A stretch of DNA of 44,537 bases, taken from the NCBI RefSeq assembly GCF_030372105.1, contig NZ_JAUDBQ010000022.1, forward strand, positions 1 to 44,537, read 5' to 3'. The translations under genes and the position numbers were made by a program. The DNA is from Cellulomonas cellasea. Its GTDB lineage: Bacteria > Actinomycetota > Actinomycetes > Actinomycetales > Cellulomonadaceae. Shown piece after piece: positions 34,551 through 44,227 of the stretch; the first letter of the stretch is position 1, and each line of letters starts with the position of its first letter. The notes under the pieces were generated by a model. It saw nothing but the letters and a program-made list of their open reading frames with translations, had not been told where the DNA came from and did no database searches.

Positions 34551-35852
34551 CTGAGCACCGGCCGCCTGCTGCGCTCGCGCGCGGCCCTGTGGACGGCGTT
34601 CGTGGTGGCCCACCTGTGGGTCGCGTTCGCCGGGACGGTGCTCCAGGGCCGGTCCTTCTTCAACGACGTCGAGCTGTACCGGGAGTGGATGCGGCTCGGC
34701 GTCCAGCAGGGCGCCTGGCCCGTGCTGTCCGGCGAGTGGGTGTACCCCGCCGGCGCCATCGTGCCCATGGCGCTCGCCGGGCTGATCACCACCACGAGCA
34801 CGTGGGGCTACCAGGTCGCCTGGGTGATGTTGGTGGCGACGCTCAACGGGCTCGCCATCGTCGCGCTGCTGCGGGCCCGCACCGCCGACGGCGCCGCGCC
34901 CTCGGTGGAGCCGGCGCGCGGCGCCTGGTGGTGGCTGGCGTTCATCGCCGGGCTGGGCCCCGTCGCGGTGGGGCGGCTCGACGCGATCGTGGCGCCGGTG
35001 GTGATCGTGGCGCTGCTGGTCGCCGCCCGCAGGCCCTGGGTCGCGTCGGCCCTGCTGACCGCCGGGGCGTGGATCAAGGTGGCGCCGGGGGCGATCCTGC
35101 TGCCGCTGGTGCTCGCGGTGCGGCGGCCGTGGCGTGACGTGGTGCTGCCCGCGGCGCTGGTGTGCGCGGCGGTGGCGGGCGCCGTGGCGGCGGGCGGCGG
35201 GCTGCCGAACCTCACGAGCTTCCTCACCCAGCAGGGCTCCCGGGGCCTGCAGATCGAGTCGGTGGGCGCCACCGGGTGGGTGCTGTTCGGGATGTTCTCC
35301 CCCGTCGTGGACCGCTACCTCAACGTCGAGCTGATCACCTGGGAGGTCGGCGCGCCGGGCACGGCGGTCGCCGCCGACGCGCTCGGCGCGCTGCTGCCGC
35401 TCGGGCTGGCCGCCGCTGCGGCGCTGCTGTGGTGGGCCCGCCACCGCGGCCACCCGGAGCGCCGCTGGGCGACGTCCGAGGAGTTCGTGGTGCGCGGCGC
35501 CCTCCTCGTCGCCACCGTGCTGATCGTGTTCAACAAGGTGGGCTCACCCCAGTTCATCGGGTGGCTGGCGCCGCCCGTGGCGGTGGCCCTGGCCTTGGGC
35601 CTGCCGCGCTGGCGGCGGACGGCGTGGTGGGTGCTGGGGCTGGCGGTGCTGACGCAGGTCGTCTACCCGCTGCGCTACAACGACGTGCTGTTGGGCGACG
35701 CCCCGGGCACGCTCGCGCTGGTGCTGCGCAACGCGCTGCTGGTGGTGCTCCTCGTCGGCACCGCCCACGGCATCTGGCGGGCGGCGCGTCAGCCTCCCGA
35801 CGATCCGGGACCGCTCCCCGACGCCACCGACGCGACGAACGCGAGCAGGTAG
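34551..35852 (+). CDS. GT87-like (DUF2029) polyprenyl-linked mannosyl/glycosyltransferase, membrane
   Basis: About 433 residues with 9-11 membrane helices. The N-terminal FNDVELYREWMRLGVQQG (Asp after helix 1) and WVYPAGAIVPMALAGL resemble the first extracytoplasmic loop of GT-C fold enzymes of the GT87/PimE group, which use polyprenyl-phosphate sugars. TAGAWIKVAPGAILLPLVLAVRR is the conserved later block with KVAP. Start choice is difficult: TTG 34530 has no ribosome site, while CTG 34551 has GGAGG 5 nt upstream, so I give CTG. Its last 64 bp overlap the convergent GH81 gene. The sugar acceptor is unknown. Confidence 0.78.
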   Translation: MSTGRLLRSRAALWTAFVVAHLWVAFAGTVLQGRSFFNDVELYREWMRLGVQQGAWPVLSGEWVYPAGAIVPMALAGLITTTSTWGYQVAWVMLVATLNGLAIVALLRARTADGAAPSVEPARGAWWWLAFIAGLGPVAVGRLDAIVAPVVIVALLVAARRPWVASALLTAGAWIKVAPGAILLPLVLAVRRPWRDVVLPAALVCAAVAGAVAAGGGLPNLTSFLTQQGSRGLQIESVGATGWVLFGMFSPVVDRYLNVELITWEVGAPGTAVAADALGALLPLGLAAAAALLWWARHRGHPERRWATSEEFVVRGALLVATVLIVFNKVGSPQFIGWLAPPVAVALALGLPRWRRTAWWVLGLAVLTQVVYPLRYNDVLLGDAPGTLALVLRNALLVVLLVGTAHGIWRAARQPPDDPGPLPDATDATNASR

Positions 35853-37930
35853 GCGCGCGAGCTGCCGTCGTCGATCGAGGTGTCCGACAGCCCTGGCGCC
35901 GCCTCCCACGCCCGCCCGGCCTCATCCGGGCCGGCCATCGCGAGGTACATCAGCAGGTAGTCGCCGAACTTCACGTCGAAGCCGCCCGGCGTCGCCTCCT
36001 CGACCTGCGCGATGATCCGGGCCGCCCGGGCGTCCTCGTCGGCGTCGCCCTGCACCAGGTACCCCGCGACAGGGCTCATCGGGATGAGCTGGATCGCGAG
36101 CATGGCGGCCGGGTCCGGGCTGAACCAGGTGGCGTAGTCCCGCTTGCCGCCCCAGTTGAGCGCCATGACGTGGTGCCCGAACCCGTCGTACACCGGATCG
36201 GCCAGATCAGGCGACGTCCAGTAGGCGCGGGTCGAGGCCGCCTCGGTGGAGGCCAGCCACGCGGCCTGCACCCCGAGCGCGTCCTGCCCCGACGCGGCCG
36301 CCCACAGCCCCAGCCCGTTCCAGGCGGTCACCGCCTCCGAGCTGGACTCCTGGTTGTTGCCATCCGCGAACGGCGCGGGGCCCGACGCCCACGCGTGGCC
36401 GGCGTACACGTCGAAGGCCCGCAACTGCGGGAACCACTCGGAGCCCTCGGCGGCCGCGACGTCCTGCGCCAGCAGGTCCAGCACGGGCGCCAGCTCGGCG
36501 GCGAGGGCCGGATCGTCGGCGGCCAGCAGGCCCGCCGTGGCCAGGAAGTAGCCGTAGTGGAAGTGGTGGTCGTTGAACTCCTCGGAGCCGAAGGAGGGGG
36601 TGAGCCCCACGACGCCCCGCGCGTTCTCGTCGTACACGAAGCACCGGGCGTCGCGACGCGCGCAGCCGTCCGGCTCGGTCCACTCGCGGAGTGCCGCCAG
36701 GGTCTGCGCGCGCAGCGGCGCCACCACGTCGTCGGCGCCGAGCTGGCGGCCCAGGGTCACCAGCGTCGCGGCGCGGTACAACGACTTCCCGCCGAAGTAC
36801 GTGTCCGACGGGAACGGCGGCGTCGCGGCGACGTCGGCCGCGAGCTGCGCGACGATCGCGGCACGGCGGTCGTCGGGCACGGAGGCCAAGTCGAGCTCCC
36901 CTGCCGCCTCCACCACGGGCGCCCAGGACGTGAGCTGCGAGCCCAGGCACAGCTCGAGGGAGCCGTAGACGCTCGGGTAGGAGCCCAGGTTGCAGCGCTC
37001 CCGGCTCGGCTGCTCGCCCTGGCGGTGATGCGGCATGGTCGCGTGCACCGTCTGCGAGCCTGCCGCGGTGCGGTAGGCGATCGTGGTGCGCGCGATCCCG
37101 TCGCCCACGCCGTAGGCCACCTCGGAGCCGACCACGGGGTCCACGGCCGCGAGCGCCAGCGCCTCCAGCCCGCCGGAGGGCAGATCGGCGGGAACAGGGA
37201 ACCAGGTCGTGCTCTGCCCCGCGAGGAGCCGCACGCTCGTGTCCGCGAGGGCGCCACGCGGCGCGCTGAGCATCCACTCGACGCCCCGCACGGTGCTCGA
37301 GGCCAGGCCGTCGGTGGCCGGCGCGAACGCCGCGCCGAGCGTCAGCGTGGTGTCGACGGCGGCGGTGAAGCTGACGTATGGGGAGCCCTGTGCGAGGACC
37401 ACCCGGCCCAGGGGCTGGCCTGCCGCGTCGAGCAGCTCGACGGTGACGGTGGCGGCGTCGTAGGCGCTGACCTGCGCGCGCGCGGCGGCCGCGTCGACGG
37501 TCACGGCCGGCACGTGCCCGCCGATGATGAGCTTCTCGCTGGTCTCGGGCTGCGGCAGGCCGATCTCGAAGCCCGAGCCGGTGAGCGCGAACGACGTGGG
37601 CAGGGCGAAGACGGGTTGCGGCTGCTCGCCGAACACGAGGCCGCTGAACCAGCGGTTGGTGGGCGGCGTCAGCCCGTCTGCGAGCCGGACCGGGTCGAGC
37701 TTCGCGGCGTCCGCGTGCTCGACGCCAGCCACCAGTGCAGCCGGGTCCGCCTGCGGCAGCTCCGCGTCAGGCGGCCCTGCGGGGTTGTCGCCGCCGTCCA
37801 CGTGCACGGCGCCGTCGAGGGCGTCGACGTCCCGTGGCCCCGCGCCGCCCAGCACCATGGCGGTGGCGACCACCAGGACGCCGGCCACGAGCACGCCGAG
37901 CGCGATCAGCACGCTGCGCCGCCCCGTCAC
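35789..37930 (-). CDS. GH81 family endo-beta-1,3-glucanase, membrane-anchored
   Basis: 713 residues. N-terminal helix 6-27 anchors it or is a signal; then a linker and the GH81 N domain beginning PTNRWFSGLVFGEQPQPVFALP (about 90). The catalytic part shows GSEEFNDHHFHYGYF with Asp454, GHAWASG, and NNQESSSEAV with Glu528 and Glu532, the GH81 active-site pattern. The enzyme cuts internal beta-1,3-glucan bonds. There is no LPxTG or carbohydrate-binding module. The GTG start overlaps the adaptor gene's stop (GTGA). Being co-transcribed with a glycan synthase, it probably trims or releases the product instead of scavenging food. Confidence 0.9.
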   Translation of the reverse strand: MTGRRSVLIALGVLVAGVLVVATAMVLGGAGPRDVDALDGAVHVDGGDNPAGPPDAELPQADPAALVAGVEHADAAKLDPVRLADGLTPPTNRWFSGLVFGEQPQPVFALPTSFALTGSGFEIGLPQPETSEKLIIGGHVPAVTVDAAAARAQVSAYDAATVTVELLDAAGQPLGRVVLAQGSPYVSFTAAVDTTLTLGAAFAPATDGLASSTVRGVEWMLSAPRGALADTSVRLLAGQSTTWFPVPADLPSGGLEALALAAVDPVVGSEVAYGVGDGIARTTIAYRTAAGSQTVHATMPHHRQGEQPSRERCNLGSYPSVYGSLELCLGSQLTSWAPVVEAAGELDLASVPDDRRAAIVAQLAADVAATPPFPSDTYFGGKSLYRAATLVTLGRQLGADDVVAPLRAQTLAALREWTEPDGCARRDARCFVYDENARGVVGLTPSFGSEEFNDHHFHYGYFLATAGLLAADDPALAAELAPVLDLLAQDVAAAEGSEWFPQLRAFDVYAGHAWASGPAPFADGNNQESSSEAVTAWNGLGLWAAASGQDALGVQAAWLASTEAASTRAYWTSPDLADPVYDGFGHHVMALNWGGKRDYATWFSPDPAAMLAIQLIPMSPVAGYLVQGDADEDARAARIIAQVEEATPGGFDVKFGDYLLMYLAMAGPDEAGRAWEAAPGLSDTSIDDGSSRAYLLAFVASVASGSGPGSSGG

Positions 37931-38658
37931 AGGCCTGCCTCGCGCAAGTAGCCCCGGACGGCTTCCACGGCCCGGGTCACGACCCCGTCGTTGCGCAACG
38001 CCAGCTCGGCGGTCACGGGCGTGCCCGCGGCGACCAGCCCGTTGGCGTCGCCCTTGACCAGGTCGTCGGAGCGCACCTTCACCACGGCCTGCGCGGCGCT
38101 GGCCACCGTCTGCACGGAGACCTCCTCGACATGCCCGGCCAGGCGCTGCTGGTTGGGCAGCACGATGGTCACGTGCGCCGCGTCCTCGACCCGCGCGTAG
38201 TCCTTGGCGCTGAGCGTGTACTCGGCCTGCACGTACAGGCTGTCGGCCTTCTCCACGACGGCCAGGTCGCCGACCGCCTCGACGAACGTGCCGCGCTCCG
38301 CCTTGAGGGTGACGATCGTGCCGGGGCCGGTGGCCTTGACCACGAGCCGTCCCTCGGCGTCGACGGCGCTCGCGGCGGTCTCCACCGGGGCGAAGCCGAT
38401 CTCGCGGTCGTGGCGGAGCGCCGCGCTGTCGATGACGAACAGCGCGTCGCCCTCCTCGACGACGTCGCCGGGCTCCACGAGCTGGTCGACGACCAGCCCC
38501 GCGTATGGGGATCCCACGTGGTACGTCAGCGCGGCGATCTGCGCGGAGGAGCTGCCGGCGCGGCCCTCCCGCTCGTTCAGGTGGTAGGTGAGCAGGAGGG
38601 TCACGGCGAGCACGGTCAGCAGCCCGAACGTCAGGCGAAGGCGGTTGCTCCAGGTCAT
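37927..38658 (-). CDS. HlyD-like membrane fusion/adaptor protein
   Basis: 243 residues. Single N-terminal helix (about 8-25), then a lipoyl-like hairpin region (VGSPYAGLVVDQLVEPGDVVEEGDALFVID, about 48-77), a second half-motif (VKATGPGTIVTLKAERGTFVEAVGDLAVVEK, about 107-137) and beta-barrel-like strands to residue 235. The two half lipoyl motifs with an inserted segment are the hallmark of HlyD/MFP proteins and of the Alg44-like partners of glycan synthases. The domain lies outside the membrane. It overlaps the synthase by 4 bp upstream and the GH81 gene by 4 bp downstream. Its role is probably to guide or export the growing chain; that is inferred. Confidence 0.82.
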   Translation of the reverse strand: MTWSNRLRLTFGLLTVLAVTLLLTYHLNEREGRAGSSSAQIAALTYHVGSPYAGLVVDQLVEPGDVVEEGDALFVIDSAALRHDREIGFAPVETAASAVDAEGRLVVKATGPGTIVTLKAERGTFVEAVGDLAVVEKADSLYVQAEYTLSAKDYARVEDAAHVTIVLPNQQRLAGHVEEVSVQTVASAAQAVVKVRSDDLVKGDANGLVAAGTPVTAELALRNDGVVTRAVEAVRGYLREAGL

Positions 38659-40313
38659 GCGGCACCTCCGGAGGTCAGGGCGGCGGCCCGCCGCGATGTG
38701 CGCGCCTCACGCGCGGCGGTCACGACGAAGGCGCCGAGGATCAGGGTGTTGGTGGTGTTCCAGGCCAGGGCCAGCGAGAGGGACCCGTTGCCCAGGTCCT
38801 TCCAGGCGCCCACCACCGAGGTCAGCAGCAGGAAGACGAAGAACAGCACCTGCGGCATCATGAAGTTGAACGGGGAGGCGGCGCGGCCCAGGCTGCCGGT
38901 CACGTGCCACTGCTGCTCGCGGCGGAAGAACGCGTTGACGAGCGCGCGGGTGTAGATCGGGAACGACACGGTGGCGAGCATCAACGTCTCCCACCGGAAC
39001 GACCCGAGGGTGTAGAACGCCACGACGATCTGCATCACGTAGAAGCCCGCGTAGGCCAGCGCCCAGGTGAGCGGCGACATATGGAGCTGCATGGGCGTCA
39101 GGCCGAAGTACACCTGCAGCGGCGGCACGAGGAGCAGCAGCAGGGGCGCGATGCCCGTGAGGTAGTGCGTGGACGTGACCCAGTACTGCAGCCGCTGGTC
39201 GAGCGTCAGGTTGCGCTTCTTGGACAGCGGGTTGTGGGTGAACATGATCTCGAAGCCGCCGGTCGCCCAGCGGAGCTGCTGCTTGGTGTACGCCTCGACC
39301 GTCTCGGGGGTGTCCCCCACGGCGAGCGACATCGGTATGTAGATGGAGCGCCAGCCCGCCTCGTGCAGCCGCAGCGACGTCCACACGTCCTCGGACTTCG
39401 AGTCGGCGTACATGCCGCCGACGTCCTGGATCGCCCGCCGCCGGAAGATCACGTTGGTGCCGACGCAGAACGCCGAGTTGAACTTGTTCCGGCCCGGCTG
39501 GATGTACCGGTAGAACACGGCCTGCATGTACCCCGCGCCCCGCGAGATGAGGTTGTGCAGGTTGCCGTAGGTCTGCGGAGTCTGCACGAACGCCACATCC
39601 GACGTCGCGAAGAACGGCACCGTCTCGTGCAGGAACTCGGGCTCGGGCACGAAGTCGGCGTCGAAGATGACGAACAGCTCGCCCCGCGTGATGGTCAGCG
39701 CGTGGTTGATGTTCCCGGCCTTGGCGCCGTTCTTGCTGAGCCGGCGCACGTACCGGGCGCCGAGCTCGGCGGCGAGGTCGCGCACCTCGTCCGAGCGGCC
39801 GTCGTCGAGCACCCACGTCATGTGCTCGCCCTGCATCGCGAGGGCGGCGGTGACGGTGCGGCGGATGGTGGCGAGGTCCTCGCCGTAGGTCGTGATGAAC
39901 ACGTCGATGCCCACCGGGCTGCCGTGCAGGCGCATCGGCCAGTGGCGCGGGTTGTCCGCCGTGCCGTCGCGCAGGATCTCGTCCATGTCGTACAGGGCGT
40001 CCTGGGCGTGGTGGAACGCGAAGCCGCGCGGGTTGTGCCCGCTGGAGAGCATCGTCCACAACGACAGCAGCGCGTGGACGATGAGCACGGCCTCGGCGGT
40101 GATGACCATGGACCAGGGCAGCCAGTCGCCGCGGTTGCCGGGGTTCAGCAGGAAGACCGCGTACAGCAGCACCCCGGCGCAGGCCAGCGCGACGAGCAGC
40201 ATGAACGACGGCGAGTGCGCCGCCTCGTTCTCCGGGGTGCGGGTGGGGCGGCCGTGCGGGACGTCGGTGGTGCGCGGCTCGGAGACGAGCCGGTCGAACG
40301 CGGTTGCTGTCAT
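38655..40313 (-). CDS. Processive GT2 glycan synthase (cellulose/curdlan synthase-like)
   Basis: 552 residues. Helices at about 37-55 and 68-90, a cytoplasmic GT2 domain (130-360), then about 5 helices (383-400, 415-435, 445-462, 487-505, 515-533). All processive GT2 residues are present: D170-D171-G, D218-A-D220, QTP near 245, E308-D309, and Q345-Q-L-R-W349. There is no PilZ domain. Cellulose, hyaluronan or beta-1,3-glucan (CrdS-type) synthases all share this pattern; co-transcription with a GH81 beta-1,3-glucanase favours beta-1,3-glucan from UDP-glucose. The ATG at 40313 has GGAGA 5 nt upstream. It is the first gene of a fully overlapping operon with a structured leader. Confidence 0.9.
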   Translation of the reverse strand: MTATAFDRLVSEPRTTDVPHGRPTRTPENEAAHSPSFMLLVALACAGVLLYAVFLLNPGNRGDWLPWSMVITAEAVLIVHALLSLWTMLSSGHNPRGFAFHHAQDALYDMDEILRDGTADNPRHWPMRLHGSPVGIDVFITTYGEDLATIRRTVTAALAMQGEHMTWVLDDGRSDEVRDLAAELGARYVRRLSKNGAKAGNINHALTITRGELFVIFDADFVPEPEFLHETVPFFATSDVAFVQTPQTYGNLHNLISRGAGYMQAVFYRYIQPGRNKFNSAFCVGTNVIFRRRAIQDVGGMYADSKSEDVWTSLRLHEAGWRSIYIPMSLAVGDTPETVEAYTKQQLRWATGGFEIMFTHNPLSKKRNLTLDQRLQYWVTSTHYLTGIAPLLLLLVPPLQVYFGLTPMQLHMSPLTWALAYAGFYVMQIVVAFYTLGSFRWETLMLATVSFPIYTRALVNAFFRREQQWHVTGSLGRAASPFNFMMPQVLFFVFLLLTSVVGAWKDLGNGSLSLALAWNTTNTLILGAFVVTAAREARTSRRAAALTSGGAA

Positions 40314-40494
40314 CTGGTTCTCCAACGTCGGGCCGGTGCGGAGGCGGCGGGTCAGCTGACCCGTCACCTAGGGCGGCGGCGGCGTTGGCGTCTAGTGCAC
40401 CGGGGCCTGCGATGCGGCATCGGAGATGTGGAGAAAAGCCGCATCTCCCCCGGTGGGTACGCACAGAACGTAACAGCGATGGGCGACTTGTCTA
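40314..40494 (-). promoter_or_regulatory. Promoter and structured leader of the glycan-synthase operon
   Basis: Minus-strand TAGACA (40489-40494) and TACGTT (40467-40472) are 16 bp apart, a good promoter pair. The ~147-nt leader can fold as an outer CACCGGGG/CCCCGGTG stem enclosing GATGCGG/CCGCATC, with GGAGATG/CATCTCC as a competing pair. The perfect palindrome CGGGTCAGCTGACCCG is at 40348-40363. No known riboswitch was recognised. Confidence 0.6.
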
Positions 40495-41975: not shown

Positions 41976-43238
41976 TCAGGGAAAGCGGAGCCGGTCGACC
42001 ATCAGATCGGCCTCGTCCAGGACCTCGCCGGCGGCCCAGGCCATGTCGCGCCTGGACTGGGTGATCGGGCGCAGCACATCTGCCTCGACCAGCCGCTCGA
42101 CCGTCGCGTAGGCCCGGGCCTGCGACGCACCTGTCAGGCGGGCCACGTCACCGGCATCGACGATCGGGTGGCGGGGCAGCAGCGGCAGCAGCGCAGCCGC
42201 CGCCGACCCCGCCCGGGGCCGGATGCGCTCGGCCCACTGGTGCGGCAGCGCGATCAGCCGCTCAGCCGAGACCGTGGCCTCCGCCGTCGCCCGAGAGGCC
42301 GCGTCCGCCAGGAAGCCCGCGAACGGCTCGACCTCGCCCTGACGGTAGTCGTTGACCAGCTGGAAGTAGAAGTCGCGGTCGGCCACGATGGCAGAGGCAA
42401 CCGGCACCGCCATCTCCCGGGTCACGCCGCGGTAGCGCCACAGGGCGTTGATGAGCGACCGGCCGACGCGGCCGTTGCCGTCGGTGAACGGGTGGATGGA
42501 CTCGAACTGGGCGTGCGCGACAGCTGCCTGCACCACCGGGTCGATGTCCGTGCGCCGCATGAACGCGATCAGGTCGGCCATGAGCTCGGGCACGCGCTCG
42601 GGGGCCGGGGGGACGTGAACGGCGCCCCGGGGCGAGCGGTTGGACCCTCCAATCCAGTTCTGCACCGAGCGCAGTTTGCCCGCGTCCCACCGCTCTTCTG
42701 GGTCGTCGGCCATGAGCGGGACGTGGGCGGCGAGGATGTCCTGGAGGTCCACGCCGTCGGCGGCGCGGTGCACGAGCAGGTTGAGCCCGTCTATCGCGCC
42801 CTTGACGGTTCGAGCGGTCTTCGGAGCTCGGATGCCGTACTGGGCACGGGCCAACTGGTCGACGGTGGTCAGCTCCTCCTCGATGCGCGAGGAGGCGATC
42901 GCCTCGGTGCGCAGCAAGAAGGGCTCCAAGGTGGCGACCTGGCCGGCGTAGGTGCGCTCGAGCACGCCGATCTCGACCTCTGCCTGGCGGGCGAGTTCGA
43001 GGGTCTCGGCCGACGAGGGCAGGCGCAGGTCGGCGATCAGCGGGGGGATCGAGGCGCTGTACTCGCCGATCTCTGCGCGGCGCCCGCTGCTGGACACCCA
43101 CGGCAGGGACTCACTGCCATGGGCGGGGATGCCTGCCGGAGTGGCGACTCCCCGGTCCACGCCGGACTCGCCGCGCGCGTGGGAGCGGGACTCACCACCT
43201 GTGTGGACGCCAGCGGGCTGGCGAGGCTGAGCGGACAT
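41976..43238 (-). CDS. Fic family protein (adenylyltransferase-like)
   Basis: 420 residues. N-terminal 45 residues are disordered; the Fic_N region follows (EYSASIPPLIADLRLP), then the Fic core with the loop HPFTDGNGRVGR (H249), a complete active site for AMP transfer. The C terminus is a winged-helix domain (VDAGDVARLTGASQARAYATVERLVEADVL). The inhibitory-helix motif is present as SSRIEE (116-121), where the usual G/N after Glu is E. The target is unknown; there is no antitoxin gene beside it, in line with class II Fic proteins that carry their own inhibitor. ATG 43238 has GGAGG 6 nt upstream. Confidence 0.87.
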   Translation of the reverse strand: MSAQPRQPAGVHTGGESRSHARGESGVDRGVATPAGIPAHGSESLPWVSSSGRRAEIGEYSASIPPLIADLRLPSSAETLELARQAEVEIGVLERTYAGQVATLEPFLLRTEAIASSRIEEELTTVDQLARAQYGIRAPKTARTVKGAIDGLNLLVHRAADGVDLQDILAAHVPLMADDPEERWDAGKLRSVQNWIGGSNRSPRGAVHVPPAPERVPELMADLIAFMRRTDIDPVVQAAVAHAQFESIHPFTDGNGRVGRSLINALWRYRGVTREMAVPVASAIVADRDFYFQLVNDYRQGEVEPFAGFLADAASRATAEATVSAERLIALPHQWAERIRPRAGSAAAALLPLLPRHPIVDAGDVARLTGASQARAYATVERLVEADVLRPITQSRRDMAWAAGEVLDEADLMVDRLRFP

Positions 43239-43274
43239 GCGGGGCCTCCAGTAACCGAGAAGATCGCTTCCACT

Positions 43275-43304
43275 ATTCTCGCTTAAAGACATATCCGAGA
43301 ACAA
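43275..43304 (-). promoter_or_regulatory. Fic gene promoter with internal dyad
   Basis: Minus-strand TTGTTC (43299-43304) and GAGAAT (43275-43280) are 18 bp apart; the AT-rich spacer is unusual for this DNA. TTCTCG (43276-43281) and CGAGAA (43296-43301) form an inverted repeat covering both hexamers, a possible autoregulatory site. Confidence 0.45.
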
Positions 43305-43459
43305 GGTCCGGGCCGCTCTCGCTTCCAGCAGCCGTGGCCGACAGGCCGGAGAAGTCCGACCTGTGAGGCTGCGTGAGCGCTAGTCGACGGCGTGCCGGAA
43401 CCACCCGTTGCGAACCGGGTCCCAGACCCCTCCCAGCCTCCCCGACTACGATCGAGCCC

Positions 43460-44227
43460 ATGCCAGAGCATCGCCGGGACATGACCTCGATCTTGCAACT
43501 CAGGGATGATTTCACCAGGTTCATGCTCGCGTACCGGTTCGGTCTTGATGAAGTCATGACCAAACTGACGATCCTGCGCGATGAGTTCAACTACGCGCAC
43601 AGCTACAACCCCATCGAGCACGTCGGCTCGCGGCTCAAGTCCCCGGACAGCATCCTGCAGAAGGCGCACCGCAAGGGGATCCCGTTCACCCTCGAGGACA
43701 TCAAGTCCCAGATGTTCGACATCGCCGGCGTCCGGGTGACCTGCGCGTTCCAGTCGGACATCTACCGCGTCCGCGACCTGCTCATCGGCCAGCAGGACCT
43801 CACGCTGCTCGCCGAGCGCGACTACATCGCCGAGCCCAAGCCCAACGGCTACAAGAGCCTGCACCTGATCGTCCAGGTGCCGGTGTTCATGTCGGACCGG
43901 GTCGAGCCGGTGACCGTGGAGATCCAGATCCGGACCATCGCGATGGACTTCTGGGCGAGCCTCGAGCACAAGATCTACTACAAGTACGACAAGGAGATCC
44001 CGGCCGAGCTGCTCGCCGAGCTCAAGGACGCCGCCGACGTCGCGAACGCCCTCGACATCAAGATGGAGCACCTGCACAACACAGTGCTCACCATCAAGGG
44101 CGCCACCACCGGCGATTCCTCGGCGGACATGCAGGGGCTCGTCCCCTCGCAGCAACTCCTGGAGGCGTTCCTGCGCGAGTCCACCCCCGCGCCGCAGGCG
44201 ACCGACGACGAGCCCGACACGCACTGA
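43460..44227 (+). CDS. Small alarmone synthetase (RelQ/SAS-like GTP pyrophosphokinase)
   Basis: 255 residues containing only the synthetase domain; no HD hydrolase and no TGS/ACT regulatory part. DIKSQMFDIAGVRVTCAF, the G-loop AEPKPNGYKSLHLIVQV, and VEIQIRTIAMDFWASLEHKI with the catalytic Glu identify it. It makes (p)ppGpp or pGpp from ATP and GTP/GDP/GMP in the cytoplasm. ATG 43460 is chosen because TACGAT lies exactly 7 nt upstream (leaderless); the longer frame begins inside the Fic promoter side. Expected regulation is mostly transcriptional, as in other SAS proteins. Confidence 0.9.
   Translation: MPEHRRDMTSILQLRDDFTRFMLAYRFGLDEVMTKLTILRDEFNYAHSYNPIEHVGSRLKSPDSILQKAHRKGIPFTLEDIKSQMFDIAGVRVTCAFQSDIYRVRDLLIGQQDLTLLAERDYIAEPKPNGYKSLHLIVQVPVFMSDRVEPVTVEIQIRTIAMDFWASLEHKIYYKYDKEIPAELLAELKDAADVANALDIKMEHLHNTVLTIKGATTGDSSADMQGLVPSQQLLEAFLRESTPAPQATDDEPDTH

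Follow-up and report, generated by a model that had tools for sequence, protein, structure and literature searches.

A three-gene operon of glycan synthase, HlyD-type adaptor and GH81 hydrolase in Cellulomonas cellasea as a candidate β-1,3-glucan system

Which polymer is made by an operon that joins a processive glycan synthase to a HlyD-type membrane protein and an endo-β-1,3-glucanase? The question is raised by contig NZ_JAUDBQ010000022.1 of Cellulomonas cellasea (assembly GCF_030372105.1), of which positions 1 to 44,537 were analysed; this whole stretch of 44,537 nucleotides, with a GC content of about 0.73, is called the window. Its minus strand carries a run of three genes, encoding a glycosyltransferase family 2 (GT2) synthase, then a HlyD-type adaptor and then a protein of glycoside hydrolase family 81 (GH81; Table 1). 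An earlier note, made from the DNA letters alone, had predicted a β-1,3-glucan exopolysaccharide system. As GH81 enzymes act on β-1,3-glucan, the product most likely contains runs of β-1,3-linked glucose, and we regard a β-1,3-glucan as the probable, if by no means assured, product of the operon. The narrower claim that this product is the accumulating curdlan is rated lower.

Conservation of the operon and its three proteins

The synthase is rarely found without its two partners. Among 101 genomes sampled from the family, 36 contained the synthase at an E-value of 1e-60, and inspection of all of them revealed the HlyD gene in 36 and the GH81 gene in 35, the sole miss lying at a contig end. 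A scan of named genomes yielded 78 loci; a distant match in Bradyrhizobium (186 bits) was set aside and the remaining 77 scored at least 593 bits. Of these 77, 76 have HlyD and 74 have GH81; all gaps fall in L116, L135 and L159, which are contig ends, and L116, from C. septica, retains HlyD and breaks off within the place of the next gene. Every named locus not interrupted by a contig edge thus keeps GH81 (74 of 74), counting a broken copy in L170, one cut by a contig end in L149 and one that lies upstream instead in L169. According to their record titles, the named loci belong to Cellulomonadaceae, Microbacteriaceae, Demequinaceae, Propionibacteriaceae and Nocardioidaceae and to two metagenome-assembled genomes (MAGs) of Saccharibacteria. 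At the class level an orthologous synthase (at least 691 bits) occurred in eight of 394 genomes, and in the short stretches available all seven orthologues besides the window's own were accompanied by HlyD and also by GH81, of which at least the start is covered.

The association also holds across 221 genomes of Cellulomonadaceae, which are related, so that the counts are not independent. With thresholds of at least 579 bits for the synthase (94 genomes) and at least 400 bits for operon-type GH81 (96 genomes), 92 genomes had both, two the synthase alone, four GH81 alone and 123 neither. Both synthase-only cases lie at a contig edge (G070, locus L049, and G537, on a contig of 4,714 bases). In the four GH81-only genomes (L214-L217), GH81 adjoins UraA and LytR_C in every case and LLM in three, the same synteny as that of the operon, and the 17-kb stretches around it hold no relative of the synthase or of HlyD. 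Thus, synthase and adaptor are absent jointly, while GH81 can remain.

The gene junctions are conserved as well. Successive overlaps of 4 bp, described in the earlier note, are present as described. For the first junction, an ATGA or GTGA overlap of this length is seen in 67 of the 76 named loci, and for the second in 54 of 74. This recurrence indicates that the arrangement is no accident, and we infer that the trio is co-transcribed. The span of the same note, up to 40494, proved too long, because the coding portion stops at 40313-40367, depending on whether the synthase starts with ATG at 40313 (552 amino acids) or GTG at 40367 (570 amino acids). We prefer the ATG as the putative start because GGAG sits 6 bases ahead of it. 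Orthologues leave the matter unsettled: among 35 other matches, 12 begin at residues 18-20, nine before 18 and 14 after 20.

Some loci depart from the simple trio. Two synthase-HlyD pairs and an operon-type GH81 occur per cluster in L154, L172, L187 (Demequina) and L203 (G568), and in L205 (G551) the synthase is split in two pieces by a frameshift or an assembly error. The two MAGs of Candidatus Saccharibacteria (L174 and L181; 1.2-1.3 Mb) carry the whole trio in stretches with a GC content of 0.49-0.50; downstream of the trio in L181 come two proteins of 715 amino acids with Kelch matches under the cut-off. Transfer between epibiont and actinobacteria or a binning error are possible origins of these copies.

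The synthase has the hallmarks of a processive GT2 enzyme. Pfam places GT2 families and Cellulose_synt above their cut-offs, and an alignment of 31 sequences, that of the window among them, shows no variation in the motifs DDG, DAD, ED, QxxRW and KAG, which confirms the intact D, DxD, ED and QxxRW of the earlier note. Two helices precede the catalytic domain and several follow it; the C-terminal tail is short, and Pfam detects no PilZ domain. The predicted structure matched BcsA chains best in the PDB, followed by plant CesA; CslF6 and hyaluronan synthases ranked below these. The closest NCBIfam model is CelA, at 242.1 bits against a cut-off of 699.1 bits. Plasmid records provided 705 matches, all below 60% identity, and the best 60 of the 705 reach 37.9%. 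Direct control by cyclic di-GMP through PilZ or a BgsA-like tail was rejected, since the synthase has neither feature.

The adaptor exceeds the Pfam cut-off for HlyD_3 (40.8 against 22.2 bits) and for HlyD_D23; its first lipoyl half stays below (Biotin_lipoyl_2, 20.4 against 29.8 bits). In the predicted structure, one N-terminal helix leads into a lipoyl barrel-sandwich and β domains, and matches in the PDB to ZneB, BesA, EmrA and MacA join the HlyD domain in assigning it the fold of membrane fusion proteins. The long α-helical hairpin by which such proteins contact outer-membrane channels is absent from the model, which has only a helix of 8 residues between the lipoyl halves. An adaptor without the long Gram-negative hairpin would suit a cell without an outer membrane.

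The assignment of the third gene to GH81, already made in the earlier note, rests on the C-terminal Pfam model (Glyco_hydro81C, 165.7 against 25.6 bits) and on D454, E528 and E532, which we take to be the catalytic residues. These are invariant in an alignment of 26 sequences including the window's, and the stretches around them align with solved GH81 structures. The N-terminal GH81 model remains below its cut-off (19.9 against 25.6 bits), and Pfam finds no further domain. The protein looks membrane-tethered. A hydrophobic N-terminal anchor without lipobox spans about residues 7-28, as judged by eye, and among the 74 GH81 proteins of named loci a lipobox-like motif was seen in 32 and a lipobox or strongly hydrophobic N-terminus in 71, as scored by a simple pattern and a hydropathy window rather than a trained predictor, with inferred starts. 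If tethered, the enzyme is more probably an editor of the cognate product than a tool of foraging. The window's genome has a second GH81 elsewhere, in a frame of 1280 residues, and in a quick tree (support 100) the operon GH81s form a clade apart from four longer-frame GH81s, one of them from this genome, which likewise speaks for editing over foraging. Seven Cellulomonas loci (L115, L117, L120, L121, L137, L168 and L182) have a second GH81, with a longer frame and belonging to the other clade, that directly follows the operon in the same orientation; three of these seven were placed in the GH81 tree.

The link to curdlan and a second synthase

That curdlan is made in Cellulomonas, as stated in the earlier note, agrees with literature reports. 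Native curdlan of Cellulomonas reportedly does not stain until it has been extracted with alkali (PMC10819609). C. flavigena is a reported curdlan maker, and in the accessible part of that account its curdlan genes are nominated by similarity only (PMC3544764). Cfla_3154, Celf_3456 and Celgi_1506 were listed there in 2013 as putative curdlan synthases, Cfla_3154 being one of two candidates in C. flavigena. They very probably are the operon synthase orthologues of C. flavigena, C. fimi and C. gilvus. Each of these genomes has one operon synthase, adjoined by HlyD and GH81, and one second GT2, and the positions of the two enzymes fit the locus-tag numbers (distances of 578, 148 and 625 kb against 539, 129 and 567 genes, respectively); the match was thus drawn from position and gene spacing rather than read from annotation. 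In the text available to us, the same account mentions GH81 only as a degrader of β-glucan, does not assign the synthase a partner of either the HlyD or the GH81 type and regards the reuse of curdlan by C. flavigena as unexplained (PMC3544764). The operon GH81 would answer this question if it is active on curdlan.

The second GT2, the other of the two candidates, may be the source of the bulk curdlan. In that case, the operon would make a minor, short, soluble or wall-bound β-1,3-glucan or would normally be silent, so that a β-1,3-linked product is compatible with this alternative too. We consider it a substantial possibility, somewhat short of an even chance. Strong matches to the second GT2 (at least 947 bits) are confined to four of 16 genomes tested, those of C. 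flavigena, C. fimi, C. gilvus and C. cellasea; the other 12, including the window's own and that of C. gelida, give weak matches, nearly all of them on the operon synthase. C. gelida makes no curdlan exopolysaccharide according to the accessible part of the C. flavigena genome paper, which cites Kenyon 2005 (PMC3035266). The second GT2 is at least as good a match to the reported curdlan phenotype as the operon, and the small amount of curdlan ascribed to C. fimi and other species, in the available text of PMC3544764, also counts in favour of this alternative. Nevertheless, C. fimi and C. gilvus possess the second GT2 as well, and the phenotypes compared are second-hand and come from very few strains. 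Moreover, within the 18 kb that surround the second enzyme in C. flavigena, neither the HlyD nor the GH81 protein of the operon has a relative, and no glycoside hydrolase is found among those neighbours that Pfam recognises, namely an ABC transporter ATPase, HATPase_c_2 and MASE1/PAS/SpoIIE proteins and housekeeping genes; nine of the 15 frames have no family and are possibly wrong frames.

The second enzyme of C. flavigena (Cfla_2615 type; L193:8177-10102) is itself of CesA type and has extra sequence between its catalytic motifs. It directly adjoins the HATPase_c_2 and MASE1/PAS/SpoIIE proteins, which suggests regulation of the phosphatase type.

Relation to known glucan synthase systems

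Compared with BcsA, BgsA and CrdS, which group together, the operon synthases form their own clade, with a support of 99 in a quick tree and of 100/100 in a careful one. The quick tree, with PgaC and NodC as outgroup, has long branches that meet; the careful tree retained 48 of 90 sequences after distant and redundant rows had been dropped, and one long-branch join in it was flagged. In both trees the synthase thus stands apart from cellulose synthases, as expected for a β-1,3-glucan system, with hyaluronan synthases outside the sampling. As the operon synthase stands outside CrdS too, the trees are silent on linkage, and the linkage claim rests on GH81 specificity.

The closest parallel in layout is the crdASC cluster for curdlan in Agrobacterium. 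Our CrdS references, from Agrobacterium plasmids, were chosen by layout and not by annotation, and in both of them seven of seven CrdS residues described in the accessible part of PMC6821405 are in place. Like the operon, crdASC combines a CesA-type GT2 with a HlyD_3 protein, at the CrdA position, in one cluster. This protein is of HlyD type in both crdASC-type clusters, by HlyD_3 in L072 (24.3 against 22.2 bits) and by its HlyD-family annotation in the other. Local identity between CrdS and the operon synthase is 37% over 286 columns, and the synthases of C. flavigena, C. fimi, C. gilvus and the window reach 32-38%. In contrast to crdASC, the third gene of the operon is GH81 in place of CrdC, a difference that refers to the cluster and not to the remainder of the genome, the HlyD protein has half the size (243 against 484 amino acids) and the synthase falls outside the CrdS clade. 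Two glutamines shared by CrdS and BgsA at positions where BcsA has another residue (Q237 and Q259; numbering of PMC6821405, from its available part) are present in all 35 operon synthases, and position 270 is R in 32 of 35 where CrdS has K, in an uncertain alignment of transmembrane columns. The CrdS-like residues hint at a β-1,3-containing product; because these columns align poorly, the comparison is a hint and not a proof.

The bgsBA genes for the mixed-linkage glucan of Sinorhizobium likewise pair a HlyD-type protein with a CesA-type GT2 in two overlapping genes. Their order is reversed, the stretch inspected has no hydrolase alongside and the envelope is Gram-negative. Layout also guided the choice of the S. 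meliloti reference, whose HlyD protein shares 66% identity with that of R. phaseoli, close to the 67% given for the HlyD-like protein of R. etli in the accessible text of PMC9495663, where this protein is proposed to aid expulsion of the glucan. By profile comparison with hhalign, the second lipoyl and β region of our adaptor matches the HlyD proteins of crdASC and bgsBA with a probability of 95 and an E-value of 1.9e-8. Could the operon, then, make a mixed-linkage (1,3;1,4)-β-glucan, like BgsA or the Romboutsia enzyme? The pairing of synthase and HlyD protein as in bgsBA would agree with this, and both residues shared with CrdS are common to BgsA too. However, BgsA ends in a C-terminal tail that binds cyclic di-GMP, as far as the available part of PMC5567048 describes it, whereas the operon synthase has a short tail and lies outside the BgsA clade. 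Furthermore, GH81 is described for β-1,3-glucan, and most classified endo-β-1,3(4)-glucanases belong to GH16, again in the part of the source at hand (PMC8949617). The same source reports that the GH81 enzyme of Bacillus halodurans binds three intertwined β-1,3-glucan chains at its catalytic site, which supports a β-1,3-glucan as the operon product. A mixed-linkage product is improbable.

Cellulose operons (bcs) share with the operon the synthase fold and the pairing of a synthase with a hydrolase, BcsZ being specific for the product of its synthase. The operon differs in the missing PilZ domain, in QTPQ instead of QTPH and in a hydrolase of another family. No match to BcsB was obtained in the window's genome by a search that finds it in two of 14 control genomes. 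An identification as a cellulose operon was rejected on the CelA cut-off, PilZ, BcsB and QTPQ. The broader idea of a synthase for cellulose or a non-glucan, with GH81 as a forager on fungi or algae that is co-transcribed by chance, could appeal to CelA as the best model, to BcsA as the top fold and to the four genomes with GH81 alone, but on top of the grounds just listed it would have to explain a GH81 linkage kept across several families, a hydrolase that looks tethered instead of secreted and the second, longer GH81 of this genome, and is very improbable.

The earlier note held that a HlyD-type protein plus GH81 is not the crdASC layout. Its HlyD part has to be abandoned, since a HlyD_3 protein occupies the CrdA position and bgsBA joins HlyD and synthase, while GH81 in place of CrdC does set the operon apart. 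The pairing of synthase and HlyD protein is therefore already known; new are GH81 as the third gene and the spread of the trio in monoderm bacteria. Among the titles, abstract openings and passages listed for the open-access part of PMC, no description of the trio was found, nor any paper that joins GH81, a glycosyltransferase and HlyD.

Proposed function and significance

Taken together, the three proteins suggest the following course of events. The GT2 enzyme would polymerise glucose, presumably from UDP-glucose, at the cytoplasmic side of the membrane and, as its fold and motifs imply, extrude the chain through its own membrane channel. The HlyD-type protein, held by one helix at the outer face of the membrane, might guide or stabilise the emerging chain. 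Near the exit, the tethered GH81 could trim chains and thereby set their length, clear stalled polymer and/or recycle it. The product would be curdlan-like without necessarily being an accumulating curdlan capsule.

Several findings weigh against this proposal. The synthase is a long separate branch that joins neither CrdS nor BgsA, and four of the seven CrdS channel residues given in the available text of PMC6821405 are unmatched in the operon synthases, as read from the poorly aligning transmembrane segments. C. gelida NBRC 3748, reported to be curdlan-free, carries the full operon (L122). Operon-type GH81 persists without synthase and adaptor in all four genomes of this kind, so that another role is possible for it. 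Finally, C. fimi and C. gilvus do not grow on curdlan according to the accessible part of PMC3544764, as would be expected if GH81 does not serve foraging, although this gives no sign of curdlan turnover. Of the predicted β-1,3-glucan system, the conserved operon with its cognate GH81 and its presence in C. flavigena have thus been substantiated, while the position of the synthase and the case of C. gelida weaken the prediction. C. gelida and the distribution of the second GT2 imply that the bulk polymer may belong to the second enzyme, or that the operon product is minor, subject to fast turnover or conditional.

The genes around the operon do not appear to be part of it. The genes for GT87 and LytR_C run opposite to the operon, and those for LLM and UraA run with it; all four were rejected as members because they are missing beside many operons of the named loci. 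Past the LLM gene, at 41976-44227 of the window, two genes diverge, one on the minus strand for a Fic-domain protein and one on the plus strand for a RelA/SpoT-type synthetase. The region upstream of the operon, which is possibly a promoter or leader, includes the element GACGCCAACG..GCCG at 40374-40392. Its consensus, G.CGCCA[AG]CG..GC[CA]G.CG, recurs at a similar upstream distance in 11 of the 77 named loci, all of them Cellulomonas, and has 32 matches over all loci with both strands and duplicates counted. For an upstream riboswitch, one Rfam scan gave no match and another six weak matches far under the gathering scores, three of which fall on a hairpin after the upstream LLM gene. A promoter scan returned one promoter-like and one terminator-like site, both on the plus strand and uninformative.

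Table 1. Features of the operon and its upstream region (positions in the window)
Feature	Position	Strand	Evidence
GT2 processive glycan synthase, CesA/BcsA-like core	38655..40367	-	motifs, Pfam, AlphaFold2 model (pLDDT 82.5), PDB matches to BcsA
HlyD/membrane-fusion-type adaptor, 243 amino acids	37927..38658	-	Pfam, AlphaFold2 model (pLDDT 86.8), PDB matches
GH81 endo-β-1,3-glucanase (by family), 713 amino acids	35789..37930	-	Pfam, conserved residues, N-terminal anchor
4-bp ATGA overlap of synthase stop and adaptor start	38655..38658	-	sequence
4-bp GTGA overlap of adaptor stop and GH81 start	37927..37930	-	sequence
Upstream region with short conserved blocks	40365..40480	-	comparison of loci

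The operon might represent a separate β-1,3-glucan synthase lineage of the Gram-positive envelope, in which a synthase, a HlyD protein without hairpin and a tethered GH81 editor form a translationally coupled unit in several actinobacterial families and in Saccharibacteria MAGs. We advance this tentatively, as close to an even chance. If true, the lineage would contribute part of the missing genetic basis of the curdlan-type glucan of Cellulomonas and of its turnover, with the operon supplying one candidate curdlan synthase together with an adaptor and a cognate hydrolase. The operon also predicts a surface β-1,3-glucan across many genera, for many of which we know of no report of such a polymer. 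A synthase lineage outside BcsA, BgsA and CrdS that is combined with a dedicated GH81 opens the question whether β-1,3 specificity has originated repeatedly.

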